A DNA stretch of 64,000 nucleotides, from assembly GCF_040250305.1 (NCBI RefSeq), contig NZ_CP158190.1:3814001-3878000 (forward strand), given 5' to 3'. This DNA is from Peribacillus frigoritolerans. Lineage in GTDB: Bacteria; Bacillota; Bacilli; Bacillales; DSM-1321. Within the stretch, counting starts at the first letter, position 1. Each line of letters opens with the position of its first letter. The notes under the pieces were generated by a model. The model worked only from the letters and a program-made list of their open reading frames with translations, was not told where the DNA came from and searched no databases. Made by a program: the position numbers and the translations under genes. Below, piece by piece: positions 3,626 to 24,640 of the stretch.

Positions 3626-4762
3626 TTATTTATTGGAAATATGCTCTGCCTTTTTGATATTGTGGTCATCCAAGGTCTTCGAGTAAAGGACTTCCCCTTC
3701 AGGTGTTGCCAAAAAGTATAGGTAATCCGTTTTCTCAGGTTTCAGTACCGCATCGATTGATGTCGTTCCGGCATTTGCAATCGGCCCTGGAGGCAGCCCC
3801 TTATTCTTATACGTATTATAAGGTGATTTCACCTCAAGGTCTTTATAATACACCCTGCTCTTATGTGAACCTTTCGCATACAAAACGGTCGGATCCGTTT
3901 GAAGCGGCATCTCTTCCTCAATACGATTGTAAAAGACGGAAGCTATTTTTCCGCGATCGACCTGTGCCGTCGCCTCTTCTTCAACAAGCGAAGCGAAGGT
4001 CAGCATCTCATGTACGGAATAATCGTTTTTGTCCATCTGGGTCTCGTATGCCTGCAATGTCTCTTCGGTTTTCTTCAGCATCTCGATGACGATCGATTCC
4101 AGTGTCGGCTTTTCCTCATAAAAGTCATAAGTAGCTGGGAAAAGGTATCCTTCAAGCGGATATAAAACCTTTTCATTTTCAATTTCCGAGGTCAAGAGCT
4201 GCGGAAATTTCTCTTGCATGGCATTAACGAATTTCTTATCATTCAATTCCTTAAATACCTTTTTCGGATCTTCACCCGTCTTGACTGCGATGATATCGGC
4301 AATTTGGACAAGCTGCTTTCCTTCAGGAATCGTAATCTTCATTGCAGCTTCCTTCATGAGTTTTCCGGTTTTGATGCTTGTGACGATATCTTCAATTGGC
4401 ATGGAAGGTGATAATTTATACTCACCTGCCTGAAAACCGGATTCATTGCGGAATTTAATATAATATTTGAATACGCGTGCGTCCTTGATTATCCCCTGCT
4501 CTTCAAGCAGTGTCGAAATTCCGTTAACGGAAGAACCGATTGGGATTTTCACTTTCTTGATGGTGTCATCTTCGGGATCGACTGGTTTCATGGCTGAGTT
4601 GATATATAAAAAGCCCACAAGACCAACTATCCCAATTAGTACAATAAGCGAAGCTATCGTAATCATGATGATTTTACGAACCAGCTTGGCTTCTCCTTGC
4701 TGTTCTAACAATTTCATTCGGATATGTTCCTTTTTAGATAAATTTTTATCTTTTTCATCCAT
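3626..4762 (-). CDS. mltG: Endolytic murein transglycosylase MltG (YrrL)
   Basis: MltG is a membrane-anchored lytic transglycosylase that cuts nascent peptidoglycan glycan strands. The 378-residue protein has a charged cytoplasmic N-terminus, one membrane helix at about residues 31-55 (MITIASLIVLIGIVGLVGF), a LysM-like segment and a YceG/MltG catalytic domain. The catalytic glutamate is expected in FASLVEEEATAQVDRGKIA, which is present, followed by the conserved QTDPTVLYA and YNTYKNKGLPPGPI blocks. The ATG at 4762 is preferred because GGGGG lies seven bases upstream; an ATG two codons earlier abuts that site. It is a single gene between two terminators in a conserved neighbourhood. Confidence 0.95.
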   Translation of the reverse strand: MDEKDKNLSKKEHIRMKLLEQQGEAKLVRKIIMITIASLIVLIGIVGLVGFLYINSAMKPVDPEDDTIKKVKIPIGSSVNGISTLLEEQGIIKDARVFKYYIKFRNESGFQAGEYKLSPSMPIEDIVTSIKTGKLMKEAAMKITIPEGKQLVQIADIIAVKTGEDPKKVFKELNDKKFVNAMQEKFPQLLTSEIENEKVLYPLEGYLFPATYDFYEEKPTLESIVIEMLKKTEETLQAYETQMDKNDYSVHEMLTFASLVEEEATAQVDRGKIASVFYNRIEEEMPLQTDPTVLYAKGSHKSRVYYKDLEVKSPYNTYKNKGLPPGPIANAGTTSIDAVLKPEKTDYLYFLATPEGEVLYSKTLDDHNIKKAEHISNK

Positions 4763-4996
4763 TTTCATTCCCCCTGCAAACTCACACCAACTACAGAATG
4801 GTTTCTAGATGATGCTTTCTCTAATTAATCTTTGCTTCGAACATTATACTAAAATCAACAAATAATTACATGTTTTTTGCAAAACTACATTCATCAATAC
4901 TCTATTTATGGCAAAAATGCACTAGTTTTGTCAATATACAGGTATTATTTAATAGGAAAATAGTGATATATTTGTCTAAGTTTTTTTGAGGGTATA

Positions 4997-18786: not shown

Positions 18787-19206
18787 TTAAATATAGTACA
18801 TATAAGAATCGATTTCACCCGTATCCTTGTAGCTCGCCAAATCCATAAGCGTCGTATTATCCAATACGTCCTTCACAGCATCGCGAATCCGGATCCAAAG
18901 CTGGCGCTTCACCGGCTCCTCATCCTCAATTCCTTCAACAGGAGTAATCGGCCCTTCCAATACACGAATGACATCACCAGAAGTAATCTCCTGAGGATCT
19001 TTAGACAGGACATACCCGCCATACGCACCGCGCACACTCTTCACCAATCCCGCATTACGAAGCGGCGCAATCAGCTGCTCCAAATAATGCTCCGACAGAT
19101 TATGCGTCTGGGCAATCGATTTCAAACTCTTCGGGCCTTCTCCATAATGTTTAGCAAGCTCAATCATAATTGTCAAACCATAACGGCCTTTAGTAGATAT
19201 CTTCAT
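18787..19206 (-). CDS. cymR: Rrf2-family cysteine metabolism repressor CymR
   Basis: CymR is the global repressor of cysteine uptake and synthesis genes in Bacillales and acts in complex with CysK. The 139-residue product starts MKISTKGRYGLTIMIELA, the typical Rrf2 winged-helix start, followed by the recognition-helix region SEHYLEQLIAPLRNAGLVK and the wing VRGAYGGYVLSK. It has no cysteines where Fe-S Rrf2 proteins keep three, as expected for CymR. The ATG at 19206 is about eight bases behind GAGG. Its place upstream of the desulfurase and mnmA is conserved. Confidence 0.95.
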   Translation of the reverse strand: MKISTKGRYGLTIMIELAKHYGEGPKSLKSIAQTHNLSEHYLEQLIAPLRNAGLVKSVRGAYGGYVLSKDPQEITSGDVIRVLEGPITPVEGIEDEEPVKRQLWIRIRDAVKDVLDNTTLMDLASYKDTGEIDSYMYYI

Positions 19207-19251
19207 ACATATACACCTCAAATTATTTATCCGTTTCTAAATTCTTTTGAA

Positions 19252-19388: not shown

Positions 19389-19978
19389 TTAGGACTGATT
19401 TTTTTGCTCGGACGGCCGGATTATTGCGGGGATAGGTCGAATTATTTGCTTAGACGGCCGGATTATTGTGGCGATAGGGCGAATCTTTCGCTTGGACGGT
19501 CGGTTTATTGCGGGGATAGGTTGAATCTTTGGCTTGGACGGTCGGATTATTGGGTGCTAGAACGGATTTTTCGCTTGGAAGCTGGATTATTTACGCTAGG
19601 GCGAATCTTTCGATCGGACGGTCGGATTATTGCAGGGATAGGTCGAATCTTTCGCTTGGACGGTCGGATTATTGGGTGCTAGAGCGGATTTTTCGCTTGG
19701 AAGCTGGATTATTTACGCTAGGTCGGATTTTTCGATCGGACGGTCGGATTATTGCAGGGATAGGGCGAATCTTTCGCTTGGACGGTCGGTTTATTGCAGG
19801 GACAGGTCGAATCTTTCGCTTGGACGGTCGGTTTATTGGGTGCTAGAGCGGATTTTTCGCTTGGAAGCTGGATTATTTACGCTAGGTCGGATTTTTCGAT
19901 CGGACGGTCGGATTATTGCAGGGATAGGTCGAATCTTTCGATCGGACGGCCGGATTATTGCGGGGATAGGTTGAATTA
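19389..19978. repeat. Tandem array of ~42-bp units (two ~21-bp halves)
   Basis: About 14 degenerate units of 38-42 bp follow one another without spacers. Each unit has two similar halves, one ending GGTCGGATTATT and the next ending GGTCGAATCTTT. A higher-order block with TGGGTGCTAG and GAAGCTGGATTATTTACGC recurs at 19551, 19673 and 19837, that is at 122 and 164 bp. Because 122 and the 38-41 bp units are not multiples of three, the apparent plus-strand frames shift along the array, so coding is unlikely. The array stands between cymR and the NERD-domain gene; a related array follows that gene. Confidence 0.93.
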
Positions 19979-20079
19979 ATAAGAAAGTACGTTACATGCC
20001 ACATTTAATTTCACTAAAATACAGGAAATCACTTTATTAACCGAGAATACTTCACTTAAATCTATAAGGAGTGGTTATC

Positions 20080-21069
20080 ATGATCATTAAAAACTGCAAG
20101 ATGCCTTTAAAAATAGACATGCTCGAAGCTCTGATGAGACGCTTACCTCATGGACATGCGAAGCAACCGGCAATTATTGAAGATATCAAAAAAATCAAGG
20201 CCGGATACAACGGTGAAAACAGAGTCTTCCAATCTCTTAAATCCCTTCCTGAAAAAGAGTATCTACTCTTTCATGACCTCCGACTAATTGGATCATCTTT
20301 CCCCTTCCAAATGGACATCCTCATTCTCACATCCTCTTTCCTTTTAATCCTTGAAGTCAAAAACATGGCTGGTGAAATCTTTTTCGATAATGCATTCAAT
20401 CAACTTATCCGTACAAATCCAGATGGAAAAACCGAAGCTTTTGATGATCCCATATTGCAAGTGAGCCGGCAGCGACAGCAGTTATTAGACTGGTTAAAAA
20501 CAAAAAGAATGAACAACCTTCCAGTTGAAACCCTCGTTGTCAGTGCCAATTCTTCAACGATCATTCGGGCCGGGAATACGGATATTAATAGAAAAGTGAT
20601 ACGTAAGGATCGGATTCTACTTAAAATTGAGGAATTAAAAAACAAGTATAACGAAGCGGTCCTTTCTACTAGAGCAATGAAACGATTATCGAATTTATTG
20701 CTTGATGGTCACATCCCTTATATTCCTAAACCGCTAGAGAATTATAGAATTCCGATTACCGCCCTCCAAACCGGAGTATTCTGCGATAAGTGTCATGCAT
20801 TTTCGATGGAGCGGAAATCAAGAAAGTGGATTTGCCGTACCTGTTTGGATTTTTCCCTCGATGCTCACATTCCGGCACTTTATGATTATCTATACCTCGT
20901 CAAACCTACCATTACCAATAAGGAATTTCGAAACTTCCTACAACTCCAATCCCCATCCAGTGCAAAGAAACTATTACTTTCACTAAAATTGAATCATTCC
21001 GGACATACTAGAGGCAGATTTTATCTATTAAATTCTCTCATAGAAGCAGAGGTAGGATTTCTCCGCTGA
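20080..21069 (+). CDS. NERD-domain (nuclease-related) protein with zinc ribbon
   Basis: The 329-residue protein carries a NERD domain at about residues 40-160: KAGYNGENRVFQSL, then FQMDILILTSSFLLILEVKN, matching the D...ExK pattern of restriction-endonuclease-like folds, and the family's later DDPILQVSRQRQQLLDWL block. A Cys4 zinc ribbon follows near residue 245 (CDKCHAF ... WICRTCLD), and then a helical tail. NERD proteins are presumed nucleases; their targets are unknown. The ATG at 20080 is eight bases behind AAGGAG. The last codons and the TGA stop lie inside the first unit of the downstream repeat array. As I recall the B. subtilis map, cymR and rarA are adjacent there, so this gene and its arrays look inserted. 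Confidence 0.88.
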   Translation: MIIKNCKMPLKIDMLEALMRRLPHGHAKQPAIIEDIKKIKAGYNGENRVFQSLKSLPEKEYLLFHDLRLIGSSFPFQMDILILTSSFLLILEVKNMAGEIFFDNAFNQLIRTNPDGKTEAFDDPILQVSRQRQQLLDWLKTKRMNNLPVETLVVSANSSTIIRAGNTDINRKVIRKDRILLKIEELKNKYNEAVLSTRAMKRLSNLLLDGHIPYIPKPLENYRIPITALQTGVFCDKCHAFSMERKSRKWICRTCLDFSLDAHIPALYDYLYLVKPTITNKEFRNFLQLQSPSSAKKLLLSLKLNHSGHTRGRFYLLNSLIEAEVGFLR

Positions 21070-21166
21070 TAAGTCGAATTAGTCCGCTGGTAGGTCGGAT
21101 TTCTCCGCTGGTAGGTCGGATTAATCCCCTGTAGGATGAAATATTCCGCTGATAGATTGAATTATC
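21051..21166. repeat. Second, shorter ~21-bp repeat array
   Basis: Five to six units of about 21 bp with consensus close to CCGCTGGTAGGTCGGATTTCT run from inside the 3' end of the NERD-domain gene to 21166; the last two are degenerate. The GGTCGGATT core and direction match the array at 19389-19978. The first unit encodes the end of the protein (VGFLR) and its stop. Confidence 0.88.
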
Positions 21167-21291: not shown

Positions 21292-22563
21292 ATGAATATT
21301 AAACCGCTTGCTTTCCGGATGCGGCCTCGGTCGATTGATGAGATCATCGGGCAGGAGCATCTGGTCGGTGAAGGGAAAATTATCGCAAGGATGGTGAAAG
21401 CCAAGCAGCTTTCTTCCATGATCCTGTATGGTCCGCCGGGAATCGGCAAGACTTCGATTGCAAGTGCGATTGCCGGAAGCACGAAGTTTGCTTTTAGGAC
21501 ACTGAACGCGGTGACCAATAATAAAAAGGATATGGAAATCGTGGCTGCCGAGGCTAAGATGTCGGGGAAAGTGATTCTGCTGCTTGATGAGGTTCATCGT
21601 CTCGATAAGGCGAAGCAGGATTTCCTATTGCCTTATCTTGAAAACGGGATGATCACCTTGATCGGTGCAACGACCAGCAATCCCTATCATGCAATCAATC
21701 CGGCCATCCGAAGCAGGTGCCAGATTTTCGAGCTCAAATCATTGGAAACCTTTGATATAACCAAAGCTCTGGAACGGGCACTTCATGATGAAGAGCGCGG
21801 GCTTGGTGCGTATATAACGGATGTCAGCCTTGATGCCCTTACCCATTTCGCAACGGCTTCGAACGGAGATGTCCGCAGTGCGCTTAACGCTCTTGAGCTC
21901 GCCGTCATTTCCACCGAACCTGATGAGTCCGGAACGATTCATATAGATCTGCAAATTGCCGAGGAATGCATGCAGAAAAAAAGCTTCTCACATGACAAGG
22001 ATGGAGATGCCCATTACGATGTTCTGTCGGCTTTCCAAAAATCAATTCGCGGCAGTGATGTGAATGCAGCCCTTCATTATTTGGGGCGATTGGTCGAAGC
22101 CGGCGATCTTGTCAGCATTGCCCGTCGCATGGTGGTCATCGCTTACGAAGACATAGGTCTTGCCAATCCGCAGGCTGGTCCCAGGGCCCTCGCTGCAGTC
22201 GAAGCCGCTGAACGGCTCGGGTTTCCTGAAGCCCGGATTCCACTTGCCAACTCCGTGATTGAGTTATGCCTATCACCTAAATCGAATACGGCTATTACCG
22301 CAATTGATGCGGCTCTTTCCGACATTCGCAGCGGCCATAGTGGAGATGTACCAGATCATCTTAAGGATGCCCATTACAAAGGGGCCACTGAACTCGGACG
22401 TGGCATCAGCTACCTTTATCCGCATGACTACGAGAATGGTTGGGTGAAGCAGCAATACTTACCGGACAAACTGCGCAGAAAAAAATACTACAAACCGAAA
22501 AAGAGCGGGAAATTTGAACAAGCCCTTGCCTCGGTCTATGAAAATATCGAGAAAAAGAAATAA
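21292..22563 (+). CDS. rarA: Replication-associated recombination protein RarA (YrvN)
   Basis: RarA (MgsA) is an AAA+ ATPase of the clamp-loader type that acts at stalled replication forks. The 423-residue protein starts with the family segment AFRMRPRSIDEIIGQEHLVG, then Walker A GPPGIGKTS near residue 50, Walker B VILLLDEVHRLDK, sensor 1 LIGATTSNPYHAINPAIRSR and the C-terminal tetramerization region with YEDIGLANPQAG and PKSNTAITAIDAAL. GGAGAGG precedes the ATG. It is on the plus strand, opposite to region 1, and ends in a bidirectional terminator. Confidence 0.96.
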   Translation: MNIKPLAFRMRPRSIDEIIGQEHLVGEGKIIARMVKAKQLSSMILYGPPGIGKTSIASAIAGSTKFAFRTLNAVTNNKKDMEIVAAEAKMSGKVILLLDEVHRLDKAKQDFLLPYLENGMITLIGATTSNPYHAINPAIRSRCQIFELKSLETFDITKALERALHDEERGLGAYITDVSLDALTHFATASNGDVRSALNALELAVISTEPDESGTIHIDLQIAEECMQKKSFSHDKDGDAHYDVLSAFQKSIRGSDVNAALHYLGRLVEAGDLVSIARRMVVIAYEDIGLANPQAGPRALAAVEAAERLGFPEARIPLANSVIELCLSPKSNTAITAIDAALSDIRSGHSGDVPDHLKDAHYKGATELGRGISYLYPHDYENGWVKQQYLPDKLRRKKYYKPKKSGKFEQALASVYENIEKKK

Positions 22564-23453: not shown

Positions 23454-24449
23454 TTACCGGATATTTTGATTTGAAGCTTTGATTAGGTTCTCAATCCAAA
23501 TTTGCTTGAATGCATTTGCACGAGGACTTCTGCGTCTTGCTGATATTTCTTCTGAGCTTGAGCTTGAAGAGCTTTCATCTGAGCTTGAGCTTGAAGAGCT
23601 TTCATATGAGCTTGAGCTTGAAGAGCTTTCATATGAAGAACTGCTCTCTTCTGATGAACTGCTTTCATCTTTTCTACTTCCGTTTGCTGAATTTCCATTT
23701 GCTGAATTTGCGTTTGATGCACCTCCGTCTGACGAACCTCCATCTTCGGATTTTTCATCTGTCTCCTCTTCAGCTTCTTCCTCTACCTGCACAGTTAAGG
23801 CAACGAATTGGACATGATCAGTTGTCACATAAAATAATTCTTGATTATGCACAACGATAAGGTACGTATCAGCCACTTCCATCAGGATGCCCTCAACCCT
23901 CTCAGGTCCACCAGCGAAAACGGATACCCAGTTGTGGACTAAGCGAGTCAGAATTCCATTTAGTGTATCAGTTCCGTTATAAACAAATTCAGGCAATAAT
24001 TGTTCGTCTGATTGTTCTATCACTGTTACACTTTTAATATGGGAAATCGGGTATAAAACAAGCCCATCTTTCTCCGTGGATAAAACTAAAAATTCATCTT
24101 TCACATCTACAACCCGGCCAACTTTAGATGCCGGACCGCCGCCATTCACTTGAATGCAGCTAGTTTGAAGAGTTGCCAGCAATCCTAAAAAACTGGTCGG
24201 AAATACTATTTCTTCTTCCTCGGCCAATAAATCGACTTGTGACTTTTTCGCATTCGCGACAACGATTTTCAAATGATCCCTTACGTAATACACAAGTTGA
24301 GTTTGTTCATCTTTCCCTGTTTGTAAAACGATATAATCGCTTAATACTCCTATAAGCCTGCCTTCTCTAGAATCAGGCCCGCCTTTAAACACCCTCACCG
24401 ATTTTCCTGTTAAAGCATCAAGGTACGGTAAACCAACAGTCTCTGCCAT
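23454..24449 (-). CDS. cotB: Outer spore coat protein CotB-like, serine-rich tail
   Basis: The 331-residue protein matches the layout of B. subtilis CotB. Three N-terminal modules each carry a GGPxSxxGRL-type loop (VFKGGPDSREGRLIGV, NGGGPASKVGRVVD, FAGGPERVEGILME) and end in a HLK/HIK/HVQ strand. A low-complexity tail follows from about residue 230, made of tandem runs of Ser with YE or DE pairs, encoded by ~30-bp direct repeats at 23560-23650. In B. subtilis the tail of CotB is heavily phosphorylated by CotH; here it is Ser/Glu-rich rather than Ser/Lys-rich. ATG 24449 lies 11 bases behind GGAGG. Confidence 0.85.
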   Translation of the reverse strand: MAETVGLPYLDALTGKSVRVFKGGPDSREGRLIGVLSDYIVLQTGKDEQTQLVYYVRDHLKIVVANAKKSQVDLLAEEEEIVFPTSFLGLLATLQTSCIQVNGGGPASKVGRVVDVKDEFLVLSTEKDGLVLYPISHIKSVTVIEQSDEQLLPEFVYNGTDTLNGILTRLVHNWVSVFAGGPERVEGILMEVADTYLIVVHNQELFYVTTDHVQFVALTVQVEEEAEEETDEKSEDGGSSDGGASNANSANGNSANGSRKDESSSSEESSSSYESSSSSSSYESSSSSSSDESSSSSSSEEISARRRSPRANAFKQIWIENLIKASNQNIR

Positions 24450-24640
24450 TTTTCCTTTAGCCTCCAATAGTTATTTATACTTTAATGATATCCGTACTGC
24501 ATATATATGCGCCTGCTTTCTAATACGGACTCTGCTTATCACCCATTTTGTAGGAAATCGTCGTACGCCTAGAAATCCCCTTTTGAAAAATCACTTTTTC
24601 CATTCTATTCAACTTTTAAAAAAGGGCCTTACTTTTTAAT

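Follow-up and report, generated by a model that had tools for sequence, protein, structure and literature searches.

The described system that comes closest to the locus reported here is the RAYT/REPIN pair. According to two published accounts, its nuclease gene has a fixed chromosomal place, is flanked by its own short repeat, and is accompanied by dispersed noncoding copies of that repeat, which is lineage specific and more abundant in genomes that hold the gene (PMC8049555, PMC3733652). The locus analyzed here lies in a 64,000-nucleotide stretch (the window) of the 5.6-Mb single-contig chromosome of Peribacillus frigoritolerans, and it resembles RAYT/REPIN in that a gene for a NERD-domain protein (NERD1) is flanked by its own repeat and the repeats are dispersed in the genome. 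The association of more repeats with presence of the gene is clear for NERD1 but is contradicted by three losses of a second such gene, NERD2. Moreover, RAYT is an HUH tyrosine transposase that acts on palindromic single-stranded REPs, whereas NERD1 joins a NERD domain to a zinc ribbon and a predicted winged helix, and its repeats form direct, helically phased tandem arrays without hairpins. Because the enzyme is no HUH transposase and the repeats are no palindromes, RAYT/REPIN can serve as the nearest working analogy, yet the NERD system is not a member of it.

Other systems share particular features with the locus. A homing endonuclease gene interrupts the sequence that its product recognizes, and NERD1 likewise lies inside its presumed target; the empty sites of NERD2 (in genomes G013, G001, and G034) consist of a fused array. 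The presumed target here is, however, a long array with many dispersed copies, and no invasion of an empty site was seen, the empty NERD2 sites looking like losses through recombination between arrays. Type III toxin-antitoxin systems such as ToxIN also have tandem repeats next to a nuclease gene, but four pieces of the NERD arrays displayed no RNA structure above chance, the arrays occur downstream and dispersed as well, and the protein has a predicted DNA-binding domain and a restriction-type nuclease fold. Plasmid iterons are direct repeats of ~20 to 22 bp around the gene for a repeat-binding protein; in contrast, the NERD arrays are chromosomal and dispersed by the dozen, and the protein has a nuclease fold and is no known replication initiator.

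PglW of the BREX defense system has the NERD domain in common with NERD1 but differs in architecture. In comparisons with the NERD proteins of BREX and MADS, NERD1 scored 18.6 bits against a cutoff of 460 and, for PglW, 13.3 bits against a cutoff of 990. SmdA of Staphylococcus aureus probably carries a NERD domain too, and we know of no report of tandem repeats associated with it or with the NERD proteins of defense systems. CRISPR was considered and set aside, as the units are contiguous diverged copies with no unrelated spacers between them and the neighbors are cymR- and rarA-type genes.

RESULTS

An intact NERD gene between two arrays of one repeat family

An earlier note, made from the letters of the window, had described a gene for a NERD-fold protein with intact D...ExK-like residues and a zinc ribbon between two tandem arrays of shared core and orientation, the second of them beginning within the gene's last codons and the whole block lying between cymR and rarA. 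Each of these claims was borne out (Table 1). The NERD1 protein matches the Pfam NERD family (PF08378) at 70.1 bits (cutoff, 22.1), with all catalytic and zinc-binding residues in place, and the downstream array begins ahead of the stop codon. GGTCGGATT/GGTCGAATT occurs on the plus strand in both arrays, the exact form GGTCGGATT being found seven times upstream and twice downstream. In the upstream array, Tandem Repeats Finder reports 21-bp units nested in 122/164-bp units from 19400 to 19976, and a chain test allowing one mismatch finds 24 core matches in the chain (locus L042, 3101 to 3686). The Pfam domains of the neighbors agree with the proposed surroundings; the name CymR for the left one is presumed from the gene order of Bacillus subtilis. 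Elsewhere in the window (23454 to 24467, minus strand), a DUF6897/DUF2642-type protein has a serine-rich tail made from 27-bp and 15-bp tandem repeats, and its relatives have other repeats in the tail.

Table 1. Features of the NERD1 block and its neighbors, in window positions
Feature	Position	Strand	Remarks
Left neighbor, Rrf2/CymR-type regulator gene	18787..19221	-	Pfam Rrf2
Upstream tandem array	19389..19976	+	Core GGTCGRATT, 20/21-bp steps, larger 122/164-bp duplicated blocks
Array-to-gene spacer	19977..20079	+	Presumed promoter and ribosome-binding site, AAGGAG at 20066-20071
NERD nuclease gene (NERD1)	20080..21069	+	329 aa plus stop; ATG 20080, stop 21067-21069
D..ExK-type site, codons D79 to K94	20314..20361	+	Within NERD domain
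Zinc ribbon, codons C235 to C255	20782..20844	+	Cysteines C235/C238/C252/C255
Predicted winged helix-turn-helix, C-terminal, ~residues 262-318	20863..21033	+	
Downstream tandem array	21050..21164	+	Core and orientation as upstream; Tandem Repeats Finder unit 21/42 bp
Right neighbor, RarA/MgsA AAA+ ATPase gene	21292..22563	+	Pfam MgsA_C

Among 91 relatives of the protein, the catalytic residues are almost invariant (D79 in 91, E92 in 89, and K94 in 91), and each of the four zinc-ribbon cysteines is kept in 90 or 91. A Pfam scan carried to E = 1 gave, beyond NERD, a single subthreshold match to an unrelated family and no HUH (Y1) transposase; the best PADLOC match has an E value of 0.0097. In the predicted structural model, the nuclease part can be aligned with McrC and with nucleases ancillary to CRISPR, Can2 and Card1 among them, and the winged helix is likely the part that would read the core. 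The NERD2 proteins of genomes G014, G018, G026, and G011 differ, by eye, in the recognition helix and the wing.

Phased arrays accompany NERD genes across the order

Relatives of the NERD1 protein occur in at least 50 of the 61 genomes searched. We assembled 97 distinct NERD loci, which come from the family of Peribacillus, from 12 or more further families of its order, and from certain named genomes, taking among the matches listed those that span more than 250 query residues (shorter fragments were excluded, and 3 of 100 were removed as duplicates); 6 of the 97 lack an intact frame, and many are mutual orthologues. A strict test that makes no assumption about the core called an array where at least three identical 7-mers stood in a 20/21-bp register, or multiples of it, within 900 bp of the gene. 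By this test, 87 of the 97 loci have an array (upstream in 73, downstream in 44, and on both sides in 30, leaving 57 of the 87 with an array on one side only), and 10 of the 97 have no phased array. When the proteins were collapsed at 50% identity and one gene was taken per cluster, an array was present in 39 of 44.

The earlier note had proposed checking whether arrays adjoin NERD genes more often than expected. They do: against 87/97, shuffled controls gave 2/485 (9/970 in a second shuffle run), 20 regions, one in each of 20 genomes, that lie ~19 to 30 kb away from a NERD gene and were not picked as intergenic gave 0/20, and cymR-rarA spacers lacking an intact NERD gene (19 with no trace of it, 6 with remnants) gave 3/25, all 3 among the 19. 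The last figure shows that the background level of arrays in these genomes is real. The linkage between gene and repeat is real and general across NERD relatives.

When 7-mer pairs in the NERD flanks were counted at every spacing between 8 and 89, none being favored in advance, peaks appeared at 20 to 21 (4,559 pairs), 40 to 42, 60 to 63, and 80 to 84. The array cores among the lineages include GGTCGRATT (core 1), TCACGAGTAAA, ATCAGCCAAA, ACCGACCATAT, GCGCTCAAAG, GTTGATAAA, TTAGACCGAA, and GGCCCAA. Since the spacing peaks at 20 to 21 and its multiples across such different cores, the period is fixed and the sequence is not. Core and orientation agree between the two sides in 29 of the 30 two-sided loci; with one side shuffled, a 7-mer was shared twice in 33 of 600 trials. 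The remaining one of the 30, L120 (G044), has its two arrays in opposite orientations. In 63 of the 73 relatives with an upstream array, that array ends 80 to 190 bp before the aligned gene start. Genomes G046 and G044 have at least 10 and at least 9 NERD matches, with cores that differ among the loci fetched, and one cell may thus run many such repeat families.

The cymR-rarA junction within the genus

rarA was found in 35 of 36 genomes of the genus, and the DNA upstream of it was compared for these 35. Ten contain NERD1, intact in 7 and with one or two breaks in 3. The earlier note had held that finding the NERD gene at this place without arrays in most relatives would speak against its idea; by the one-mismatch chain test none of the 10 is without arrays, all having core-1 arrays on both sides, and by the stricter exact test one is, L056 having no array and L055 and L006 an array on one side only. 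Six genomes retain only remnants of NERD1, one of them with a three-unit array. The remaining 19 (4 close and 15 more distant) have no trace of NERD1 and, by the one-mismatch test, no core-1 array.

The strict, core-free test detected arrays in 3 of these 19 spacers. The spacer in L047 (G029) has a decayed core-1 array that the looser chain test overlooked. In L063 and L064 (G015 and G005), at ~4350 to 4950 in rarA orientation, a long array with the core TTTGTGCTCGAT lies in a cymR-rarA spacer that has no NERD gene, and in G005 it is followed by a second core, AATTTACGAGCG. Twelve-mers from these arrays recur beside NERD genes elsewhere, at L080 (G015) and at L082 and L022 (G005), so that the long arrays of G015 and G005 fit a nuclease-repeat reading as well as they raise the background. 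In a genome of the same species, G061 (L061, 5001 to 7497), rarA breaks off after codon 250; ~550 bp farther on lies another rarA-like gene, with an identity of only 56 to 57%.

Dispersed core-1 arrays

The pair pattern GGTYGRATT-N12-GGTYGRATT, with up to two mismatches, occurs 165 times in the genome of the window and once for the reversed control. The earlier note had also held that arrays lying at random with respect to NERD genes would count against it. Most core-1 arrays are dispersed and do not lie beside a NERD gene. We examined 25 dispersed core-1 arrays, from 26 stretches (one without an array) picked among the places listed; with genes taken from open frames only, none of the 25 lies inside a gene and 11 lie between convergent genes.

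Core-1 pairs number 14 to 177 in the 10 genomes with an intact or freshly broken NERD1 and 0 to 14 in the 25 others, the two groups touching at 14. The Mann-Whitney test gave P = 4e-6 (10 versus 10 genomes inside the clade, P = 2e-4), with both tests ignoring shared ancestry. A genome tree built from iscS, cymR, and part of rarA only requires at least three losses of NERD1, and the core-1 pairs left are 14 in G008, 4 in G018, and 1 to 9 in the G001-G027 clade.

One convergent gene pair has an array between its members in 7 of 10 NERD1 genomes and in none of 11 others. Of the 31 genomes with a match at this site, 21 were examined; G006 and G007, with other inserts or N, were scored as without an array, and G025, whose rarA fell below the cutoff, was scored as NERD1-less from the protein-relative search alone. 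Eight of the 11 NERD1-less genomes have a short spacer there, containing one terminator hairpin. Among the alleles of this site (L163, 4333 to 4745, and L180 to L200), several that bear the array have two terminator hairpins, one per end, and array gain or loss here may involve the hairpin repeat. Array length at one site also differs between strains of one species (10 versus 19 core matches). In L182, L185, L186, and L196, the convergent spacer holds a different, dispersed-looking repeat, with pieces such as GCAAACTCNCTTTCTACGAATTTGTCTACAG and GGCGGAAAGGGA.

NERD2 and concerted change of its core

NERD2 lies 51 kb away in the same genome, with TTTACTCGTGARTT arrays on both sides. Copies of this core-2 14-mer number 196 in the window's genome (control, 0) and 4, 3, 42, 5, and 5 in G014, G018, G026, G011, and G034. 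A wider core-2 pattern, run in these five genomes only, gave 188, 291, 293, 68, and 68, respectively. The NERD2 flanks of G014, G018, G026, and G011 all hold shifted forms of core 2, those of G014 and G018 being TTTACTCGCCAATT and TTTACTCGCGAATT/CCAATT. Among the listed places away from NERD2 in G014, 28 of 45 have TTTACTCGCCAATT, the form of the NERD2 flank, and 2 have the common form; in G026, several distant arrays contain the flank form TTTATTCGTGARTT again. Wherever this was checked, the dispersed copies of a genome thus follow the core variant at its own NERD gene.

NERD2 is gone from its place in G013, G001, and G034, where a single short array now joins the flanks, the outcome that recombination between direct repeats would give. 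Despite the loss, TTTACTCGTGARTT occurs 523 times in G013, the most in the genus, and 195 times in G001, and the 68 wider-pattern copies of G034 equal those of its close relative G011, which keeps NERD2. Either these losses are recent and copies decay slowly, or copy number is independent of the NERD2 gene. The NERD2 place holds other genes in G021 and G023 (core-2 counts of 8 and 49), and NERD2 is in pieces or has a gap in G025 (143). By eye, the NERD2 place in L210/L211 (G023) and L214 (G021) resembles a cluster of a sulfonate/taurine-type ABC transporter and a dioxygenase.

DISCUSSION

We propose a two-part system, a sequence-specific nuclease together with a repeat family that it maintains and probably spreads, and we give this reading a probability of about one half. 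The linkage of gene and arrays, the lineage-specific cores, the fixed period, and the dispersal of the repeats are observed, as are the match between dispersed and local variants in those genomes where it was checked, the conservation of catalytic residues, and the loss of the gene with fusion of its arrays. Every step beyond genetic linkage is one that we infer, including core binding by the protein, cutting, and cutting as the driver of spread and upkeep. A nuclease that combines the NERD fold with a zinc ribbon and a winged helix would recognize a 9- to 14-bp core of its own repeat, and tandem cores spaced every 20/21 bp, or two helical turns, would place successive sites on one face of the double helix. 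Cuts or nicks made within the arrays would lead to repair by recombination, through which arrays would be lengthened, homogenized, and occasionally copied to other intergenic sites. As the gene lies inside its own array, it could be lost through recombination between the halves, and each NERD lineage would drift to a new core along with its repeats. Two points count against the proposal: plain slippage or unequal recombination can lengthen arrays as well, and no array was demonstrably inserted into a formerly empty site.

The protein might instead only bind, acting as a regulator or chromosome organizer on phased arrays, with those at its own gene used for autoregulation and the dispersed ones as boundary or decoy sites, and with arrays spread by ordinary recombination and kept by selection. 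The two-turn phasing would suit cooperative binding, and the ending of most upstream arrays 80 to 190 bp ahead of the gene and the location of 11 of 25 dispersed ones between convergent genes and of none inside a gene would fit as well; but nuclease residues as invariant as the zinc cysteines would be unneeded for mere binding, and we regard this explanation as rather unlikely. A defense role, one of the ideas in the earlier note, would have the nuclease attack foreign DNA, with the arrays acting as self marks, as sinks, or as a memory. The idea draws on the NERD domains of PglW and other defense proteins, all of them weak matches, and on the modeled resemblance to McrC, Can2, and Card1. It is improbable, however, in that the matches to large NERD-containing proteins are sub-cutoff, far under the curated thresholds, or have E values of ~0.01, NERD1 is a lone gene flanked by housekeeping genes, the array units change by degrees and have nothing like spacers inserted between them, and the dispersed arrays would be left unexplained. 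Still more improbable is a nuclease that curbs its repeats by trimming or destroying arrays of its core, so that loss of the gene lets them expand: G013, with the top core-2 count and no NERD2, is what this predicts, but in G021 and G023, where the NERD2 place is likewise without the gene, the counts are only 8 and 49, and NERD1-less genomes hold few copies of core 1.

The position of a tandem array immediately upstream of a nuclease gene recalls type III toxin-antitoxin systems, in which transcribed arrays would restrain a toxic nuclease, and the earlier note had likewise raised a structured-RNA system. Four array pieces, however, folded no better than their shuffles (z, -0.88 to +0.34), Rfam had no match in the arrays of the window, and arrays also lie downstream and at many other sites and are, by the strict test, one-sided in most positive relatives, so an RNA partner seems very unlikely. 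The least probable account is hitchhiking, in which neutral slippage arrays collect in spacers and the gene is there by chance; the variation in array length within a species and the arrays in NERD-less spacers would be in keeping with it, but the 87/97 loci against 0/20 and 3/25 controls, the lineage-specific cores, the same core on both sides, and the match of dispersed copies to local variants all speak against it. Among the three ideas that the earlier note had offered, a repeat-spreading cassette fits best; that of a structured RNA found no support, and that of a defense locus no direct support.

Among the open-license literature matches listed, judged by title and the opening of the abstract, none describes a pairing of a NERD gene with a repeat, which suggests that the partnership between this enzyme and a spreading repeat family is undescribed. 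We see about even chances that it represents a class of genomic repeat systems, found in Peribacillus' family and in 12 or more further families of its order, in which small nucleases of NERD-zinc ribbon-winged helix architecture would have private 9- to 14-bp cores, helically phased tandem arrays would be kept and spread through the chromosome by break-induced recombination, and core and repeats would change together, making it a non-transposase counterpart of RAYT/REPIN. If this is true, NERD-winged-helix proteins would gain a substrate, and there would be an explanation for a large class of tandem repeats, apparently without a name, in the intergenic DNA of Bacillaceae and their relatives. 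Repeat populations could then depend on a nuclease other than a transposase. With dozens of natural protein-core pairs, the code by which the winged helix achieves specificity would be open to direct tests, and proteins of this kind could supply new sequence-specific DNA-binding or cutting modules.
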